DNA of 39,358 bases from a virus. How positions within the stretch are numbered: the stretch's first letter is position 1; the number at the start of each line of letters is the position of its first letter. The stretch is taken from positions 1-39,358 of the IMG/VR virus record IMGVR_UViG_3300037153_000531. One strand, 5' to 3'. The position numbers were made by a program, and so were the translations under genes. The notes beneath the pieces were generated by a model. That model saw only the letters and a list, made by a program, of their open reading frames with translations, had not been told where the DNA came from and searched no databases. Shown here piece by piece: positions 22,139-39,358 of this stretch.

Positions 22139-22547
22139 TGGTGATCCACTCGCTCAGCCGTTCGAGGAGTTCCTGCCGCAGGTAGGCGCGCTGCGCCCGG
22201 CTGAACCCGCGGCCGGTGCGGGCGGCGGCGGGGAGCCGGTACGCCTTGTTCGGGTCGTAGTCCCGCGAGACGGCGGTGCTGTAGTCGTGGGTCATCTTGT
22301 TGCTGCGCAGCAGGTAGCCGTCAGGGCCGACGTACCTGGTCATGCGGACGCCGCAGCCGCGCAGGCAGGGCGCCTCGATGGTGTACGTGCGGTCCTGGCG
22401 GCGGGTGATCCTGGTCCGCTTCCGGTCGTCCCAGTCGGGGAAGCGGTGGCCGCTGGTGCGGCACTTGAGGATGGCAAGCTTGATGGTCTGCGCCCAGTCA
22501 ACGAACGCGGCCCATTGCTTGTCCTCCTCACTGGGGCTGGTAGTCAT
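22131..22547 (-). CDS. Hypothetical protein (138 aa) with a Cys pair
   Basis: Acidic start MTTSPSEEDKQWAAFVDWAQTIKLAIL, then CRTSGHRFPDWDD and the pair CLRGCGVRMTRY, which together could form one zinc site (Cys, His, Cys, Cys). The C-terminal half is basic and helical (RAQRAYLRQELLERLSEWITSE). The ATG is preceded by the full AGGAACCAGC motif and overlaps the upstream gene by 4 bases. Function unknown. Confidence 0.65.
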   Translation of the reverse strand: MTTSPSEEDKQWAAFVDWAQTIKLAILKCRTSGHRFPDWDDRKRTRITRRQDRTYTIEAPCLRGCGVRMTRYVGPDGYLLRSNKMTHDYSTAVSRDYDPNKAYRLPAAARTGRGFSRAQRAYLRQELLERLSEWITSE

Positions 22548-22960
22548 GCTGGTTCCTGTCTGGTTGTTGTTTCCACTGCTAGCCCGACTTCGATCAAGTG
22601 CCTGATGCAGTCGGACCTGGACTCGCCGCGGTCTGCGGCGAGAGCTTCGACGGGGGCGAGCCGCCAGCCGAGGCGGACTACGACCCGGCCGCCGATCTCG
22701 GGTCGCCCGCCGTGGCTGGTTTCCTCCTGCAACGGGATGTCGCGGCGGTCCAGCCAGTTGTGGGCTTCGTCGTCGCTGATGAAGCGGTAGCCGGGGATGC
22801 CTTGCCACAGGCGGAGCACCCATCGGCGGCTGTCGGCCTTGCCGGTGCCGGTGGTGCGGTAGAGCGTCTGCGAGCTGGTGCCGTCGTGCCACTGCTCCGA
22901 CTTCTCGTCATCGAACCAGCCCACGAAGGTGCCGTTCTCGCGGATGTTGATGCGTGCCAT
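22544..22960 (-). CDS. First gene of the leftward block: protein with C-terminal ribbon-helix-helix-like segment (138 aa)
   Basis: The N-terminal half (MARINIRENGTFVGWFDDEKSEQWHDG, then WVLRLWQGIPGYRFISDDEAHNWL) is a small alpha/beta domain. The C-terminal 45 residues, GRVVVRLGWRLAPVEALAAD followed by RGESRSDCIRHLIEVGL, read like a CopG/Arc-type ribbon-helix-helix fold (one strand then two helices). It could be a DNA-binding regulator of its own operon. The ribosome site GAGGAGGTGAG is very strong and lies just behind the 13-bp hairpin in the leader. The promoter is about 140 bases upstream. Confidence 0.65.
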   Translation of the reverse strand: MARINIRENGTFVGWFDDEKSEQWHDGTSSQTLYRTTGTGKADSRRWVLRLWQGIPGYRFISDDEAHNWLDRRDIPLQEETSHGGRPEIGGRVVVRLGWRLAPVEALAADRGESRSDCIRHLIEVGLAVETTTRQEPA

Positions 22961-22979: not shown

Positions 22980-23012
22980 CGGCGGGTGCCCGGCCCGCGC
23001 GGGCACCCGCCG
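22980..23012 (-). promoter_or_regulatory. Perfect 13-bp hairpin in the 5' leader of the leftward block
   Basis: CGGCGGGTGCCCG (22980-22992) pairs with CGGGCACCCGCCG (23000-23012), with a 7-base loop. On the transcript it ends only a few bases before the ribosome site of gene 22544-22960. It can act as a 5' stabiliser, attenuator or protein-binding operator. Two copies of GCGCTCCCCTCC (23029-23040 and 23090-23101) lie upstream in the same leader. Confidence 0.55.
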
Positions 23013-23101
23013 TTTCTCCTGGTGGCGGGCGCTCCCCTCCCGCGTCCGCCGCCCGCGCTGTCCCCCAAGGGCCGTTCCCCTGCGGTCGAGCGCTCCCCTC
23101 C

Positions 23102-23130
23102 AGTCTACCCGACGTTGCGGGGACCGTCAA
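23102..23130 (-). promoter_or_regulatory. Sigma-70-type promoter for the leftward block
   Basis: On the minus strand the -35 element is TTGACG (23125-23130) and the -10 element is TAGACT (23102-23107), separated by the ideal 17 bases. This is among the best-matched promoters in the genome. Its spacer (GTCCCCG...) is shared with the promoter at 33187-33215, which points to common control. Confidence 0.8.
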
Positions 23131-26511: not shown

Positions 26512-27025
26512 CCTCGAAGTCGGTGAACTGCCTGGTGGTGTAGCGGGCCAGCAGGCGCCACGCCCCGGCCGGGTCTAGCGGGTCGTCGCGGTCCACGGCG
26601 ATGACGGCTTTCATGAACCCGGTCCGGGGCGGGTCCATGCGCGGGTCGGGGCAGCCGATGTGCGGGCTCCAGGTGTCGAGGCAGTACATCGTGCCGGGAT
26701 ACATCGGCGGGTGCCAGTCGTCGTCGTAGGCGGCGAGGCCGCGGATGCGGGTGCCGTCGTTGCGGAGCACGAGCTGGTGGGTGTACCGGGTGTAGGCGGT
26801 GTCGGTGTGCAGGCCGGTGCCGCCGCGGAGCAGCAGGAAGTGCACGCCGTCGCTGTCGTGGCCGAACGACTTGAGGGCACGCGCCTTGCCCGCGCCGAGG
26901 GCGTAGTGCATCGCGTCATCTGAGACATCGGTGGTGATGCCGGGCTGCTGCACGGCGACGAACCAGAGCAGCGGGTTGGGCCGCTCGTTCTCGGTCAGCC
27001 TGTGGTCTTCGCTGATCGTCGGCAT
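26465..27025 (-). CDS. Candidate 2-oxoglutarate/Fe(II)-dependent oxygenase (186 aa)
   Basis: The central part reads VHFLLLRGGTGLHTDTAYTRYTHQ, then MYPGTMYCLDTWSPHIGCPD. His73-x-Asp75 and His122 have the spacing and strand context of the iron-binding HxD...H triad in the double-stranded beta-helix fold, and Arg129 or Arg134 could hold 2-oxoglutarate. Length is small but within the range of compact members. Phage members are known to hydroxylate nucleobases or proteins; the substrate here is unknown. The call rests on motif pattern only. The ribosome site is weak (AGCTGGCGCC). Its 3' end overlaps the opposing HTH gene. Confidence 0.5.
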   Translation of the reverse strand: MPTISEDHRLTENERPNPLLWFVAVQQPGITTDVSDDAMHYALGAGKARALKSFGHDSDGVHFLLLRGGTGLHTDTAYTRYTHQLVLRNDGTRIRGLAAYDDDWHPPMYPGTMYCLDTWSPHIGCPDPRMDPPRTGFMKAVIAVDRDDPLDPAGAWRLLARYTTRQFTDFEVTRRPPRGAAAHAGG

Positions 27026-27034
27026 GGCGCCAGC

Positions 27035-27241
27035 TTAGAACGGCGGCTCGCACTGGCACGAGGGGCCGTGGTGCACGCCGCTGTCGTCTTCGTAGCATCC
27101 CTTGCGGGCGGCGAGGAGGGCGCGGGCGAGGGCTGCGCCGCGGTGGGCTACTTCGGGGTCTTGACGCCGTGGGCTCGGCCAGAGGGACCTGCGGCGAGAG
27201 TAGGGCTGAGCATCGGCGTCCACCCGTTCTGGGCTGCTCAT
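27035..27241 (-). CDS. Small hypothetical protein (68 aa)
   Basis: Begins MSSPERVDADAQPYSRRRSLWPSPRRQDPEVAHRGAALARALLAARKGCYEDD and ends with HHGPSCQCEPPF. A basic N-terminal half, one amphipathic helix and a C-terminal Cys/His cluster (one Cys, then CQC) are visible. It is the first gene after the gene-free region. No strong ribosome site. Function unknown. Confidence 0.5.
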   Translation of the reverse strand: MSSPERVDADAQPYSRRRSLWPSPRRQDPEVAHRGAALARALLAARKGCYEDDSGVHHGPSCQCEPPF

Positions 27242-27698
27242 ACGCCCAGTATGACGGGCTTTGGTTACAGCTAGTGGCCACGCGGGTGACGGTACGGTCT
27301 GTGCTTTGGTTGCTCACCTTCACCGGGAGTTGTAGCGGTGAGGGTGGTCAGCCCAAGTTCCTCGGTGGCCGGTGGGTTCCGCCGAAGGCGGGTTCCGCCG
27401 GGCCGCGCCCTTGACCTGGCCTGCATGGGTGCAGGCCGTAAGTTGTGGCTAATCTGCCGCGACAGCGGCAGGTTAGAGCAAGGAACCGCGCCACATTGCG
27501 CATCACGCCGGGGATTCGCCATTCTCAGCAGTGGCCCACACGCCGCGTGTTCGAGCATAGGAGACTAGCTCCTGGTGGTATTTCCCACCGGAGTTGAGTT
27601 ATGCTCTACCTGATATCTGGTACCGGCAGACTATACCGGGCAGGCCCGCCGGGCAAGGGGTCGCGACAGCACCCTTGTTGGCCGTCCGGCTCTTTCGG
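27242..27698. other. Gene-free structured region (457 bp), candidate ncRNA or replication/control region
   Basis: No supported gene on either strand. It holds two 9-base repeats of GCTTTGGTT (27258-27266, 27303-27311) and two 11-base repeats of GGGTTCCGCCG (27374-27384, 27390-27400). There is an 8-bp hairpin (27418-27425 with 27430-27437), a 12-bp hairpin with one wobble (27449-27460 with 27465-27476) and a 9-bp hairpin with one bulge (27569-27578 with 27585-27593). A minus-strand TATAGT, with a poorly spaced TTGCCC, near 27626-27655 could start a leftward RNA through all of them. Confidence 0.55.
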
Positions 27699-27737
27699 CC
27701 CCGGCCCCGCCGTAGCCCCCCCGCGGCGGGGCCGGGG
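27699..27737 (-). terminator. Strong terminator hairpin after the long leftward block
   Basis: A perfect 14-bp stem (27699-27712 with 27724-27737, 11-base loop) lies one base beyond the stop codon of gene 27739-27882. It has no U-tract but is nearly all G/C. It closes the leftward block that begins near 33098. Confidence 0.75.
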
Positions 27738-27738
27738 A

Positions 27739-27882: not shown

Positions 27883-28048
27883 GGCCCTCCTCCAGCTTCG
27901 CCCTGAGCTGAGGCCAGAGCCGCGCCGCCTGGTCCGGGCTCAGGTAGACCCGCTTGGTGCGCTTCGCCCGCCCGATCATGACGACGAGCCACTGGCGCGT
28001 GTCGTCGGACCACTCCACGACCACCTGGCCGTACTCGGGCTCGCTCAT
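27866..28048 (-). CDS. Small hypothetical protein (60 aa)
   Basis: The sequence MSEPEYGQVVVEWSDDTRQWLVVMIGRAKRTKRVYLS has a three-stranded beta pattern, followed by a helix (PDQAARLWPQLRAKLEEGL). This compact beta-beta-beta-alpha order suggests a small folded domain, perhaps nucleic-acid binding given its basic loop. The ATG overlaps the upstream stop (atga). Function unknown. Confidence 0.6.
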   Translation of the reverse strand: MSEPEYGQVVVEWSDDTRQWLVVMIGRAKRTKRVYLSPDQAARLWPQLRAKLEEGLGPVP

Positions 28049-28743
28049 ATCGGGTCCAGCGGCACGTCGGCCATCTCCTCCAGCCCGGCTTCGGCCGCCA
28101 CCCCGTCCTGCCAGGTGAAGAACCGCACCAGCTTGACCTTCGGCACCCGGTAGGCGGGCATCATCCCGTCATCGAGGACCAGGTTCACCATCTGGTAGTC
28201 CGCCGCGGTGACCACGACGGCGGGCCGCTTGGCCTGGGTCCGCCCGACTGTGTGGATGAACTCCCGGTCCGCCGCCATCATCACGTCGTTGTCGATGATC
28301 CGGCGACGCGGCCACGACTCGTCATGCAAGAAGGGGCACAGTCCGCCGATCGCGATCTCGATGCACCGCTCGTGCACCGGGGCCTCGATGAACAGCCCGT
28401 CCGGCGCGATCGACGCCACGTCGCCGTACAGGGCGACATCGCCGGTCATCCGCTTCCCGCACATCGCGCACACCCTGCGCTCCCAGCAGAACCGGGCGCG
28501 GCGGTAGTCGAGCACCCCGAAGTTGGCTGGCTTCCGGCCGCCGAACTGCTCCACGATGAACGGGATGGGCAGGTTCCGGCGCGTGTCGATCGGCAGGTGC
28601 CGCACCTCCTCGGGCCACTTGGCCGCTTCCAGGGCTTGCAGCGTCTCGCGGGCCTTGGCCTCCTCGCGCTGGACCTGGGCCAGGCGGCGGTGCTCCCGCG
28701 CGACCCGCCCGGACGGGCCTTTCCTGCTACGTCGCTTCGGCAT
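28045..28743 (-). CDS. Conserved-looking hypothetical protein with HNH-like zinc core (232 aa)
   Basis: A basic N-terminus (MPKRRSRKGPSGRVAREHRRL) and coiled segment precede the central CAMCGKRMTGDVALYGD and VHERCIEIAIGGLCPF. The C-x2-C then H-x2-C pattern forms one zinc site of the kind found in treble-clef or HNH-like folds, but no HNH catalytic triad is clear. The C-terminal third (RTQAKRPAVVVTAADYQMVNL) is alpha/beta. This type of protein is frequent in actinophages and actinobacterial genomes, with no known role. Confidence 0.65.
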   Translation of the reverse strand: MPKRRSRKGPSGRVAREHRRLAQVQREEAKARETLQALEAAKWPEEVRHLPIDTRRNLPIPFIVEQFGGRKPANFGVLDYRRARFCWERRVCAMCGKRMTGDVALYGDVASIAPDGLFIEAPVHERCIEIAIGGLCPFLHDESWPRRRIIDNDVMMAADREFIHTVGRTQAKRPAVVVTAADYQMVNLVLDDGMMPAYRVPKVKLVRFFTWQDGVAAEAGLEEMADVPLDPI

Positions 28744-31850: not shown

Positions 31851-32360
31851 CTACAGGCCGACCTTGCTGGCGGCGTAGCTCGCCTGGGCGTAGGTGAACT
31901 TCTCGAACTGGAGCTGGTCGATCAGGCTGCCGCGGGAGAACCCGCCCATGTCCATGTACGACTTGGCGGAATCGACGGCCTGCGCGTTCCAGTCGGCGCC
32001 CGAGTGGTCCGCCGCCCATTCGGCGTCCGCCTGGGAGAACTTCTCGAACTTGAGCTGGCTGACCAGGCCGTCGTGGGAGAAGCCGCCCATGTCCAGGTAG
32101 GACTGGGCGCTGTCGAGGGCCTGCTGCTCGCTGACCGTGATCTGCGGCGCCTTGTGGGTGGGAGGCGCCACCGCCTTGTGGGTGGCGGGCGCAGCCGCCT
32201 TGTGGCTGGCGGGCGCCTGGGTGGCGGGCGCCGCCGGGGCCGAGTGGGTGACCTTCGGCGCGACCGGGGTCGCGTGGCCGCTGGCCATCGCGGTGCTGCA
32301 CCCGGCGATGCCGCCCGCAATGCACAGGCTGGCCACGGTGAACTTGACTGACTTACGCAT
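31851..32360 (-). CDS. ltp: Ltp-type superinfection-exclusion lipoprotein
   Basis: The protein has 169 residues. Signal peptide MRKSVKFTVASLCIAGGIAGC ends in a lipobox whose Cys21 would be lipidated, so the protein sits on the outer face of the membrane. A Pro/Ala/Thr/Lys linker (30-72) contains repeated THKA units. Two Ltp repeats follow: about 81-123 and 128-169, each with DSAxSYxDMGGFS and QLxFEKF. This is the host-cell-surface-exposed lipoprotein (Ltp) domain, known to block DNA entry of related phages by interfering with tape-measure-mediated injection. Its own terminator hairpins on both sides suggest independent control. In a virulent phage it would protect the infected cell from a second phage. 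Confidence 0.85.
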   Translation of the reverse strand: MRKSVKFTVASLCIAGGIAGCSTAMASGHATPVAPKVTHSAPAAPATQAPASHKAAAPATHKAVAPPTHKAPQITVSEQQALDSAQSYLDMGGFSHDGLVSQLKFEKFSQADAEWAADHSGADWNAQAVDSAKSYMDMGGFSRGSLIDQLQFEKFTYAQASYAASKVGL

Positions 32361-32456: not shown

Positions 32457-33098
32457 TCAGCTCTGCTCCCGCCTGACGTAGATGCCCTTGGCCGGGCTGG
32501 CGACCGGCCCGTTGTTCTTGACCAGGCGGGTGAGGTGCGACCGGATCGCCCCGCTGGTCAGGGCGAACATGCCAGCGGCCATCGTCTGCACGTCCACCCC
32601 GTCCGGGTAGAGCGCGAGGTGCTTGAGGATGCGCTCGCCGCGTTGCAGCTCCCGGTTCTCCGCGGGCTCCTCGATGACCTGCGGCGCGTTGCGCCCCACA
32701 TCGGCGCGGGGCTCGGTGCTGCCCGCATCCCGCCCGATCCGCGTGGCGTGCGGGTCCGGGACCGGCGGGCGTCCCCGGAACGAGGCGGCGTGGTTGAGGG
32801 CGGGCGCCTGCATCCTGCCGAGGGCGATCTTCACCGCGTTGAGCAGGGGCACGCCGCGCGCCTTGTCGGGCACGGTGTAGAGGCCGTTGCCCGTGCGGAC
32901 GATCCGCACGCCCTCGACCGGCGGGTCCGCGCTCGGCACGCTGACCTCGTAGTTGGCGGTCGGCCAGTAGACCACGCCGTCAGGGCGCGTCGCGGTCTGG
33001 AAGTCGATCACCTTGAGGACAGCATCGCCGTCCACGAAGCCGCGCTCCTGGACGTATCTGTTCCCGGCCTCGTCCTTGGCCATTTTCCTGTAGCCCAT
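32457..33098 (-). CDS. Candidate winged-helix regulator, first gene of the long leftward block (213 aa)
   Basis: The ATG follows AGAAGGAGG. The N-terminal 100 residues (MGYRKMAKDEAGNRYVQERGF, then VLKVIDFQTATRPDGVVYWP) are beta-rich. A disordered middle (105-150) leads to a C-terminal winged-helix: GERILKHLALYPDGVDVQTM, then LTSGAIRSHLTRLVKNN and the wing PVASPAKGIYVRRE. Being the first gene from the palindromic promoter region, it is the best candidate for a protein that binds the palindrome and controls both directions. Family not certain; no lambda-type repressor fold is seen. Confidence 0.6.
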   Translation of the reverse strand: MGYRKMAKDEAGNRYVQERGFVDGDAVLKVIDFQTATRPDGVVYWPTANYEVSVPSADPPVEGVRIVRTGNGLYTVPDKARGVPLLNAVKIALGRMQAPALNHAASFRGRPPVPDPHATRIGRDAGSTEPRADVGRNAPQVIEEPAENRELQRGERILKHLALYPDGVDVQTMAAGMFALTSGAIRSHLTRLVKNNGPVASPAKGIYVRREQS

Positions 33099-33173
33099 GT
33101 TGCCGGGCCTCCTTCTGATATCGGGCCGTTCGACCCTGGTCCATCGTCACCCCGTGGTCGAGGTGATGACCTC

Positions 33174-33203
33174 AGTCTACACGACGTTGACGGTCCCCGT
33201 CAA
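33174..33203 (-). promoter_or_regulatory. Leftward promoter of the long leftward block
   Basis: On the minus strand, -35 TTGACG (33198-33203) and -10 TAGACT (33174-33179) with an 18-base spacer. The RNA would start near 33167, giving a leader of about 70 bases to gene 32457-33098. It overlaps the rightward promoter, so RNA polymerase probably cannot hold both at once. Confidence 0.75.
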
Positions 33204-33215
33204 GTCTGGTAGACT
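33187..33215 (+). promoter_or_regulatory. Rightward promoter of the ligase block
   Basis: The -35 is TTGACG (33187-33192) and the -10 is TAGACT (33210-33215) with the optimal 17-base spacer. The RNA would start near 33222. An in-frame ATG at 33222 could even be read leaderless, but the ATG at 33267 has a strong ribosome site. Confidence 0.78.
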
Positions 33216-33266
33216 GAGGTCATGAGATCGACCCCAGTCGAAGGGCTGGGAGGGAGGAGGGCCAAG

Positions 33267-33518
33267 ATGGTCCGCGACAGCAGCGAGTACCTGGCGGAGG
33301 CGGGCGGTGCACACACGCCCGCGCCCCAGGTCACCCGCCTGCACGTTTCCCCCGCGGAGGGCGACCTGTGCATCCACGAGATGTTCGCGCCCGCGTGCGC
33401 CACGTGCACCCGCAACCCTGACGCCGCCGACCCGGAGTTCATGGAGGAGTTCGGCGGGATGACGCAGGGATTCGGCTTCTACGACGAGCTGAGCATGAGC
33501 ACGAAGGGATGGAAGTGA
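33267..33518 (+). CDS. Small Cys-rich protein, first gene of the ligase block (83 aa)
   Basis: ATG 33267 follows GGGAGGAGGGCC; a leaderless upstream ATG at 33222 would add 15 residues. The body contains LHVSPAEGDLCIHEMFAPACATCTRNPDAADP, where three Cys and one His fit a zinc site, and ends FGFYDELSMSTKGWK. Being the first early gene rightward, it may act on the host soon after infection. Function unknown. Confidence 0.6.
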   Translation: MVRDSSEYLAEAGGAHTPAPQVTRLHVSPAEGDLCIHEMFAPACATCTRNPDAADPEFMEEFGGMTQGFGFYDELSMSTKGWK

Positions 33519-33519
33519 G

Positions 33520-33768
33520 ATGACGACAGCAGACGACGCGGGCGTGGTGGTGGTGCAGGCCGCCAGCCACCGCCGCCTGATGCACCTGGGGGCGCCGCCG
33601 AACGGCGAGCGCACGCTGTGCGGGCGGTACGCGAGCGACAGGTACGAGGACCCGATGACGGACGTGACCGGGCTGCGGATGTGCGGCGCGTGCGAGTTCG
33701 CGCGTGACACGAAGGGCCGCGACTGGTGCAACAGGAGGAGGCCGCGCAGTGAAGCCGATGCTGTATGA
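33520..33768 (+). CDS. Small zinc-binding candidate (82 aa)
   Basis: MTTADDAGVVVVQAASHRRLMHLGAPPNGERTLCGRYASDRYEDP is followed by MCGACEFARDTKGRDWCNRRR. A His, then C, then CxxC and a late C form a likely zinc ribbon, a pattern shared with many actinobacterial phage and mobile-element proteins. The ATG follows GGAAGTGAG. Its 3' end overlaps the ligase start by 20 bases. Confidence 0.6.
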   Translation: MTTADDAGVVVVQAASHRRLMHLGAPPNGERTLCGRYASDRYEDPMTDVTGLRMCGACEFARDTKGRDWCNRRRPRSEADAV

Positions 33769-34585
33769 GTCGGCCGAGATCAGAGACCTGCCGGAGCTGG
33801 CCGCGGACGCCCTGATCGCGGTCGAGCAGAAGTGCGACGGAGTGCGGCTGCTGACGGAGATCACCCCCGATGGGGTGAGGTTCTTCGGCGCGGCCGGTGA
33901 CCCGATCCGGTTCCCCGCCGCGACCCAGTGGTTCCTGCCGCTGGCCGCGTCGCTGGCGCTCCCGGACGGGTCCGACGCGGCGGTCACGCTCGACGGCGAG
34001 CTGATGATCGAGGACGGCACCTACGTCGTGTTCGACCTGCCGTACCTGCGGATCGGCGGCGAGGTGCTGTCCCGGCCGGGCGAGACGCTGCTGGGCACCC
34101 GCAGGCTGCTGCTGGAGGAGATCACCGACTCGGACGACTGGAAGCCGGGCGTCCGCCTGGTCGCCCACGCGGTCACGCCGGACGAGAAGATCAGGCTGGT
34201 CGCCGCGGTGGGCGAGGAGATCGGCGGCGAGGGGTTCGTGCTCAAGCGGCGCGACTCGGTGTACCAGCCCGGCGTCCGGGTCGCCCACTCGCTCAAGTGC
34301 AAGTTCGTGTGGACAGCCGAGGTGATCGTCACCTCGTTCGAGCGGACCGCGACCACCGGGTCGGCGCGGCTCGCCGTGTTCGACGCGGCCGGGGAGCTGG
34401 TGCCGGTGGGCGGCTGCTCGCTGATCGGGAAGCCCGCCGTCGAGGCGGGCTGCGTCATCGAGGTGGCCTACGCCCACTTCCGGGGCGCGATGATCCAGCC
34501 GCGGATGGTCCGCAGGCGGGACGACAAGCAGCCGGAGGCGTGCACGACGGCGCAGTTCATGGCGTACAGCAAGGCGCTGGCGTGA
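33749..34585 (+). CDS. ATP-dependent DNA ligase
   Basis: The protein has 278 residues from GTG 33749 (GGAGGAGG upstream). Nucleotidyltransferase motif I, EQKCDGVR, carries the adenylated lysine Lys28. Motif III LDGELM is at 81-86, IIIa VVFDLPYL near 93-100, IV EGFVLKR at 161-167 and V LKCKF at 182-186. An OB-fold domain with RMVRRRDDKQPEA ends the protein. This is the minimal two-domain ligase type found in phages. It seals nicks using ATP while the bacterial host uses NAD. It is the only enzyme of DNA synthesis or repair type in this block. Confidence 0.92.
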   Translation: MKPMLYESAEIRDLPELAADALIAVEQKCDGVRLLTEITPDGVRFFGAAGDPIRFPAATQWFLPLAASLALPDGSDAAVTLDGELMIEDGTYVVFDLPYLRIGGEVLSRPGETLLGTRRLLLEEITDSDDWKPGVRLVAHAVTPDEKIRLVAAVGEEIGGEGFVLKRRDSVYQPGVRVAHSLKCKFVWTAEVIVTSFERTATTGSARLAVFDAAGELVPVGGCSLIGKPAVEAGCVIEVAYAHFRGAMIQPRMVRRRDDKQPEACTTAQFMAYSKALA

Positions 34586-34734
34586 AGGCGGACAAGCCGT
34601 GCGAGCTGTGCGGCGGGTACTGCATCGATGACGACACGTGCTACTGGTCGGTGCTGATCGGCAAGGCGTATGACTGGCGGGACTTCCGCAGCCAGCTCCG
34701 GCAGGTCAGGCCGTTCGAGGAGGACATCGCATGA
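34582..34734 (+). CDS. Small Cys-rich protein (50 aa)
   Basis: GTG 34582 overlaps the ligase stop (gtga). KADKPCELCGGYCIDDDTCYW holds two Cys pairs typical of a zinc knuckle, followed by an amphipathic helix (DWRDFRSQLRQVRPFEE). The stop overlaps the next start. Function unknown; coupling to the ligase may mean a related role. Confidence 0.55.
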   Translation: MKADKPCELCGGYCIDDDTCYWSVLIGKAYDWRDFRSQLRQVRPFEEDIA

Positions 34735-34898
34735 GGCGGGTGCCGGGATGGTGGCAGCCGCCGGGAAGGGAGGATCTGGTGGACCCGAGACTGCTGGGGA
34801 CGCTGCACCTGATCGACCAGCGGCTTGAGCGGATCGCGATAGCGCTGGAGAAGATCGCGGCGGCCTCATCTGAGGGCGCAAAAGAGGAAGACCGATGA
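34731..34898 (+). CDS. Small coiled-coil protein (55 aa)
   Basis: ATG 34731 overlaps the previous stop (atga). After a Trp/Pro-rich head comes a heptad-like stretch DPRLLGTLHLIDQRLERIAIALEKIAAAS, a probable short coiled coil, and an acidic tail. It overlaps the next gene by 4 bases. Function unknown. Confidence 0.5.
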   Translation: MRRVPGWWQPPGREDLVDPRLLGTLHLIDQRLERIAIALEKIAAASSEGAKEEDR

Positions 34899-34999
34899 CG
34901 GTCCTGACCGAATGGTGCAGGCGGGGCGCCCACCGCAGGTGCACCAACCCGAAGTGCCAGTGCGAATGCCACCCGACAGGAGACAGCAATGCTGACTGA
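34895..34999 (+). CDS. Cys-rich microprotein (34 aa)
   Basis: MTVLTEWCRRGAHRRCTNP continues KCQCECHPTG. The C-x3-C-x-C-x-C... spacing and two His make a tiny zinc-knuckle-like peptide of a kind that recurs in Streptomyces-type phages. It is coupled by overlaps on both sides (atga; 11 bases with the lipoprotein gene). Function unknown. Confidence 0.5.
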   Translation: MTVLTEWCRRGAHRRCTNPKCQCECHPTGDSNAD

Positions 35000-35579
35000 G
35001 CCCCGCTGCTTCGGCTGCGACGTGGGGATGTGCCATCCCGGCCGCGCGCTGGAGGGATGCGAGTGCGAGTGCCGCCGCGCCACCTACGTGCCGGGGTGCC
35101 GCCGCCCGGAGCGCAAGACCATGTGGCTCGCGGCGGTCGCCCTGATCGCCGCCGGGTGCACGAGCGCGACGACGAGCACCGCGGCGCCCACCGCGGCGCC
35201 GCCCAGCCCGGTGGGCTCCTCCGGGCTGTCCACGCCCGCGACGCTCGGGTGCGCCTGGTACTCCCCGACCCGGATTCCGGGGCAGGTGGTGTCGGTCGTG
35301 GCGACCGGCCCGGCGTGCAAGGACAGGTCGGTGATCGACATGCTGACCCGCGACTCGGACCAGCCGTGGGTGAGCGAGAGCCTGATCCCCGGCTCTTACG
35401 GGCACGAGCTGGCCACGCTGCGGCACGGCGCCTCGACTATCCAGGTCTGGTTCACCGGGCCGCTGCCGTCTCACAATGCGACGGCGAGCCCCGGCACCCA
35501 GTCGGCCACGCCTGCGGCGGAGCTGGCCGGGCGGGTCGCGACGGCGTTCCAGGCCGCCGGATGGACGCCGGTCGTATGA
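34989..35579 (+). CDS. Lipoprotein with Cys-rich N-terminal extension (196 aa; lipoprotein proper from 35121)
   Basis: The long form starts at ATG 34989 (CAGGAGACAGC). Residues 1-44 are a Cys-rich peptide (CFGCDVGMCHPGRALEGCECECRR). At Met45 a signal peptide begins, MWLAAVALIAAGC, with a lipobox. The 130-residue mature part is Thr/Ala/Pro-rich and then compact (GCAWYSPTRIPGQVVSVVATGPACKDRS), with two Cys that may form a disulfide. Met45 (35121) has GGAG 9 bases upstream, so a separate 152-residue lipoprotein may be made. A 44-residue zinc-knuckle head before a signal peptide is unusual. Role at the cell surface unknown. Confidence 0.65.
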   Translation: MLTEPRCFGCDVGMCHPGRALEGCECECRRATYVPGCRRPERKTMWLAAVALIAAGCTSATTSTAAPTAAPPSPVGSSGLSTPATLGCAWYSPTRIPGQVVSVVATGPACKDRSVIDMLTRDSDQPWVSESLIPGSYGHELATLRHGASTIQVWFTGPLPSHNATASPGTQSATPAAELAGRVATAFQAAGWTPVV

Positions 35580-35801: not shown

Positions 35802-35868
35802 GGGCGAGCCCGGCGCTGGGCCTTGGCACGCCGATGCGCTTGACTCCAGTCACGCGCCGGGCTCGCCC
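35802..35868. terminator. Large convergent-terminator hairpin, 15-bp perfect stem
   Basis: GGGCGAGCCCGGCGC (35802-35816) pairs exactly with GCGCCGGGCTCGCCC (35854-35868) across a 37-base loop. The right arm lies inside the end of the leftward gene 35850-35966, so the leftward stop sits in the loop. It probably ends both converging transcripts. Confidence 0.65.
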
Positions 35869-39116: not shown

Positions 39117-39358
39117 ATGGGCGGCAGGCGCTACCTGGGCATGTCGGTGTTCGACGCGGCGATCGAGCGGCTGAAGAACTCCTACGAGGCGGGCCACCGG
39201 GTGCTGGTGTCCACGTCGGGCGGGAAGGACTCGACGGTGTGCACCGAGCTGGCGGTCATCGCGGCGCGGGAGACGGGGCGGCTGCCGGTGGAGGTGGTGC
39301 ACCGCGACGAGGAGATCATCCACCCCGGCACGACCGAGTACCTGGAGCGGGTCGCGGA
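39117..39358 (+). CDS. PAPS-reductase-like PP-loop protein, N-terminal part (continues at position 128)
   Basis: ATG 39117 follows GGAGG by 8 bases and directly succeeds the methyltransferase stop. Residues 34-39 (SGGKDS) are the PP-loop that binds the ATP pyrophosphate. The sequence to 39358 equals positions 1-127; reading through the join gives one 419-residue protein ending at 1145. For the function see the entry at 1-1145. Confidence 0.85.
   Translation, partial: MGGRRYLGMSVFDAAIERLKNSYEAGHRVLVSTSGGKDSTVCTELAVIAARETGRLPVEVVHRDEEIIHPGTTEYLERVA
39232..39358. repeat. Direct terminal repeat, right copy
   Basis: Exact copy of positions 1-127. It shows that the sequence closes to a circle of 39,231 bp. 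Confidence 0.95.

Follow-up and report, generated by a model that had tools for sequence, protein, structure and literature searches.

Two near-identical promoters that face in opposite directions within about 60 bases of a phage genome raise the question of whether they form a switch between two gene blocks, a point of joint control, or simply one promoter copied back to back. The pair in question occupies positions 33166-33223 of virus record IMGVR_UViG_3300037153_000531, the whole of which (39,358 bases, G+C 70%) is the window analysed here. The phage is characterised as a soil actinophage with a GC-rich bacterial host, and since the two ends of the record (1-127 and 39232-39358) are identical over 127 bases, it is probably a complete genome, circular or terminally redundant. 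By the gene calls made within this analysis itself, the rightward promoter (P33R) leads a block on the + strand (33267-35579) that includes an ATP-dependent DNA ligase gene, and the leftward promoter (P33L) leads a long block on the - strand (33098 down to 27739). A first-pass annotation, which had placed the pair between these same blocks, proposed that it acts as a genetic switch. The features on which our own reading depends are collected in Table 1.

Table 1. Coordinates and character of the features discussed, in window positions.
Feature	Position	Strand	Description
Promoter P33R	33187..33215	+	TTGACG 33187-33192, 17 nt, TAGACT 33210-33215; predicted start ~33222
Promoter P33L	33174..33203	-	TTGACG 33203-33198, 18 nt, TAGACT 33179-33174; predicted start ~33167
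Left arm	33166..33180	-	-10, discriminator and start of P33L; reads GTAGACTGAGGTCAT on the - strand
Right arm	33209..33223	+	-10, discriminator and start of P33R; GTAGACTGAGGTCAT
Central 17-bp palindrome	33187..33203		TTGACGGtccCCGTCAA (TTGAC-N7-GTCAA); contains both -35 hexamers; candidate operator
Third sibling promoter P23L	23102..23130	-	TTGACGGTCCCCGCAACGTCGGGTAGACT; predicted start ~23095; second arm of palindrome degenerate (CCG-CAA)
TCGACC of P33L	33156..33161	-	~+7 of transcript; common to all three promoters
TCGACC of P33R	33228..33233	+	~+7 of transcript; common to all three promoters
TCGACC of P23L	23084..23089	-	Same distance from promoter as in the other two
First ORF after P33R	33222..33518	+	Start either ATG 33222, leaderless (98 aa), or in-frame ATG 33267 behind a Shine-Dalgarno sequence (83 aa)
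ATP-dependent DNA ligase, P33R block	33749..34585	+	phrog_114, PF01068; scanned as ORF from 33704
First gene after P33L	32457..33098	-	213 aa; product matches no family; C-terminal winged helix on visual reading
First gene after P23L	22544..22960	-	138 aa; product ends in a ribbon-helix-helix domain of phrog_4738 'transcriptional repressor' and is a candidate regulator

The annotated geometry of the site is confirmed. Both direct reading and shuffling bear out the annotated pair of overlapping divergent TTGACG/TAGACT promoters, as the motif TTGACG-N17/18-TAGACT occurs three times in the real sequence and in none of 300 shuffles. Such hexamers suit the housekeeping sigma factor, as in actinobacterial promoters, and we infer from the sequence that P33R and P33L are active. 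Their core promoters overlap by 17 bp (33187-33203) and their predicted starts are separated by 55 bp, so that by sequence they constitute opposed sigma-70-type promoters sharing DNA. The -35 hexamers themselves do not overlap; they lie 5 bp apart, each inside the spacer of the other promoter, for which the annotation's word 'interlock' is a fair description. The flanking arms (ATGACCTCAGTCTAC and GTAGACTGAGGTCAT) are, as had been claimed, perfect inverted repeats (15/15), and perfect 15-bp arm pairs within 60 bp number two in the window against a mean of 0.0 in 200 dinucleotide shuffles. The second such pair is found at 35802-35868 (GGGCGAGCCCGGCGC; arms 37 bases apart, at 35802 and 35854) and is possibly a terminator-like stem separating gene blocks. 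Because the arms at the divergent pair take in roughly -13 to +2 in either promoter, they represent the duplicated -10, discriminator and start with no added element. A leaderless start at 33222 was also considered as the sole cause of the arms and was ruled out, given that the left arm carries CAT and forms no start codon. Beyond the arms, similarity with mismatches reaches about +12 on both sides (TAGACTGAGGTCAT..TCGACC). The outer arms centre on 33194.5 and the central palindrome on 33195, an offset of half a base that follows from the unequal spacers of 17 and 18.

The main finding of this analysis is not the palindrome alone; it is a set of three promoters. A third sibling, P23L, absent from the first-pass annotation, lies about 10 kb from the divergent pair, and all three can be aligned over some 50-60 nt, well past the hexamers. 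With the hexamers masked, the similarity of each promoter pair was matched by at most 1 in 20,000 shuffles (permutation p <=1e-4 in each comparison). Apart from these three promoters there is no TTGAC-N17-19-TANNNT in the 39 kb (shuffles 0.16), and in the window the exact motif TAGACTG-N11-TCGACC is confined to P33R, P33L and P23L, once at each. The additional sequence common to the set consists of TTGACGG[N3]CCG over the -35 and TCGACC at about +7, and these extra bases, unneeded by sigma, point to shared regulation or to recent copying. The palindrome is perfect solely at 33187-33203; at 23114-23130 one base is missing and the second arm is degraded.

The genes that the three promoters lead give some indication of what might be controlled. 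Within the P33L block, 31851-32360 encodes an Ltp-type lipoprotein of the superinfection-exclusion families. The first gene of that block, 32457-33098, had been put forward as encoding a regulator of the site, a proposal that is not supported: its product has no match in Pfam, PHROG or NCBIfam, and the DNA upstream of the one homologue found carries no double promoter. It may nonetheless possess a C-terminal winged helix, as judged by eye and from a low-confidence structure model. Neither gene product flanking the divergent pair matches a repressor family, though a wholly new repressor family is conceivable. P23L, in turn, heads a leftward gene run whose first gene, 22544-22960, matches phrog_4738 (E 5e-10, and 5e-12 in the genome scan) across its DNA-binding domain, so the annotation erred in saying that a known repressor is lacking. 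This gene scores below the family cut-off for Pfam RHH_1; by sequence it is a probable repressor gene. Relatives of its product occur in mycobacteriophages (e.g., BigNuz gp75); none was found in the bacterial genomes searched, and no relative found covers both the gene and its promoter. Structure models of both candidate regulators have mean pLDDT values of 42 and 40, too low for a fold-library search. The leader of the repressor-like gene also contains a very stable inverted repeat at 22980-23012 (CGGCGGGTGCCCG..CGGGCACCCGCCG), just 5' of the ribosome site and with no T run after it. Elsewhere in the genome, a ParB_N domain protein is encoded at 1153-2001, near the terminase genes, and a region of about 1 kb (26730-27738), flanked by two converging gene blocks, holds no confident gene and neither a tRNA nor an Rfam match.

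Since the third copy stands before a probable repressor gene, the site looks less like an isolated two-way switch than like one element of a small group under common regulation. From the sequences, the sibling promoter, the gene families and the chance levels, all of them directly established, we infer a binding protein and a timing along the following lines. The housekeeping-sigma pair would set off transcription of both flanking blocks, ligase and long leftward, at one stage of infection, while P23L would drive the ribbon-helix-helix gene. A phage protein, most simply the product of that gene, would bind the palindromic core that spans the -35s and later turn down all three promoters, thereby regulating its own synthesis at P23L as well as the divergent pair. 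We give about an even chance to this account, in which three early promoters read by host sigma, two of them back to back, are jointly turned down by a phage DNA-binding protein at a palindromic core. It is the most likely reading given the uniqueness of the three sites, their alignment with the hexamers masked, the shared TAGACTG-N11-TCGACC and the repressor-family gene after the third copy. Against it, the degraded palindrome at 23114-23130 may not be a site for the same protein, and equal similarity would follow if a constitutive promoter had recently been duplicated.

That last possibility is one we consider somewhat unlikely: a strong promoter read by host sigma would have been duplicated into three locations, two of which adjoin in opposite orientation, with no dedicated operator and with the symmetry as a by-product. 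It accounts well for arms that coincide with the -10, discriminator and +1, for the half-base offset of the dyads (in line with promoters that are independent units) and for the existence of just three copies, and the one homologous neighbourhood found, on contig L005, has no such arrangement. However, P23L has diverged elsewhere and still retains 13 bases over the -35 along with TCGACC at a fixed distance, neither of which sigma needs. If TCGACC and the leader hairpins were themselves the regulated part, acting on the RNA through, for example, antitermination or mRNA stability, then the upstream symmetry would be incidental. The fixed +7 position of TCGACC in all three promoters, the more stable folding of the P33L leader than of its shuffles (z -3.06) and the presence of TCGACCCCGG twice in the leader of the L005 homologue are in keeping with such control; yet the leader structures differ among the three promoters, the P33R leader barely beats shuffles (z -1.90) and the leaders match no known RNA family, and we regard an RNA-level explanation as highly improbable.

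The genetic switch of the first-pass annotation, in its bistable form, would have the product of 32457-33098 or a rightward product favour one direction so that each cell expresses one block. It is possible and, in our estimation, improbable. In its favour, two polymerases are unlikely to bind at once across the overlap, a switch built on divergent promoters that overlap has been proven in pLS20 (PMC4207663), and the leftward product may carry the winged helix noted above. The annotation's corollary that polymerase can serve only one of the promoters at a time is plausible on steric grounds, and exclusion at the overlap is indeed likely; its effect on output is another matter, as competition at bidirectional promoters in E. 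coli has been reported to affect output only if one direction is strongly active (PMC12825309). The two promoters here are almost equally good, with no built-in bias. Moreover, a protein on the single core palindrome, which spans both -35s equally, should shut both directions, the opposite of a two-way switch. Nor do the recognisable genes of the blocks (ligase and a superinfection-exclusion-type lipoprotein) belong to lysogeny. In a lysis/lysogeny switch the repressor gene would be transcribed from the switch region; here the repressor-like gene is at 22544-22960. A lysogenic state would also call for an integrase or a partition system; the annotated lack of an integrase held for the two families searched, tyrosine (PF00589) and serine (PF00239), and the ParB_N domain protein at 1153-2001 may bear on partition. 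The phage falls in a lytic-looking group of actinophages for which the phage collection searched contains no close named relative. Under coordinate control, polymerase exclusion would be a secondary effect.

Searches for relatives bear on the age of the arrangement. The exact architecture AGTCTA..TTGAC-N7-GTCAA..TAGACT has no match in IMG/VR, and a looser version gave, among 84,980 genomes, two matches in the Patescibacteria group that do not exceed a rough chance estimate. Relatives sought through the ligase, 32457-33098 and 28045-28743 were not found. Terminase relatives in IMG/VR (69-100% identity) are fragments ending before both promoter sites, except for L005, the contig that an alignment-based second search again returned alone. 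The only homologue found for the product of 32457-33098 is encoded on L005 (32% over 183 aa), at 3-476 on the - strand beside a different divergent gene, which possibly encodes a secreted protein. Upstream of this homologue there is no strong promoter by scan, no palindromic pair and no double promoter, and the double promoter is consequently not an old fixed feature of the gene.

The core palindrome combined with TANNNT has nine matches in IMG/VR, about the chance level and mostly lacking promoter context, save in Gordonia phage Mahdia. Mahdia carries five exact copies of TTGAC-N7-GTCAA (23068, 32533, 35930, 37836 and 40184) and near matches at 27326 and 39881, whereas the same arms at spacings of 0-6 or 8-15 give zero matches. 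With one-mismatch sites counted, 6 of 8 are mainly or wholly intergenic, compared to 4.3% of the genome; most of the palindromes lie in intergenic promoter regions, and several enclose a promoter's -35. The phage Gustav has near-matching sites upstream of genes, and the palindrome is absent from phiC31 and Streptomyces phage Chymera. Mahdia has no annotated integrase, and a limited literature search found no description of its palindromes. Its sites resemble 33187-33203 in their 5-7-5 form and, in several cases, the enclosed -35; they differ in being more numerous, in serving single-direction promoters and in belonging to an unrelated genome with no candidate regulator in common. Since nothing in Mahdia matches the ribbon-helix-helix domain of 22544-22960, this is analogy and not homology, and a different protein would have to serve in each phage. 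By that analogy, the Mahdia sites favour the 5-7-5 palindrome as a form of operator that phages can use and lend backing to coordinate control. A broader conjecture, which we think unlikely, is that TTGAC-N7-GTCAA represents an undescribed class of operator in the early-promoter -35s of lytic actinophages (here and, independently, in Gordonia Gustavvirus) that shuts early genes as a set without lysogeny, one protein in the present phage silencing two promoters. If the operator reading is true, it would provide a regulator-site pair for early gene control in lytic-looking actinophages that is open to testing, and a single 60-bp DNA would report polymerase exclusion and joint repression together; if the promoter has merely been duplicated, the site is an ordinary compact promoter pair.

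Our literature search returned no actinophage precedent on point, and the closest comparisons come from other systems. The tetR/tetA promoters of Tn10 overlap back to back and are jointly shut by one repressor encoded at the locus. The overlap, and one repressor acting over both promoters, correspond to what is proposed here, where the recognised candidate is instead encoded 10 kb away. In pLS20, the divergent sigma-A promoters Pr and Pc likewise overlap on one DNA, with RcoLS20 operators overlapping the pair, the regulator gene lying divergent at the site and looping having experimental support (PMC4207663). Those promoters are unequal, one strong and one weak, and have a known regulator, whereas P33R and P33L are near-identical and both operator and regulator are candidates. 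The bidirectional promoters studied in E. coli share with our pair near-symmetrical DNA, divergent transcripts (here predicted) and possible polymerase exclusion; they differ in that their -10 element is common to both directions (PMC12825309), while P33R and P33L share the -35/spacer region. Set against these systems, the most fitting description of the site is a pair of overlapping divergent promoters that belongs to a set of three and probably carries a repressor site, an arrangement of a known type.
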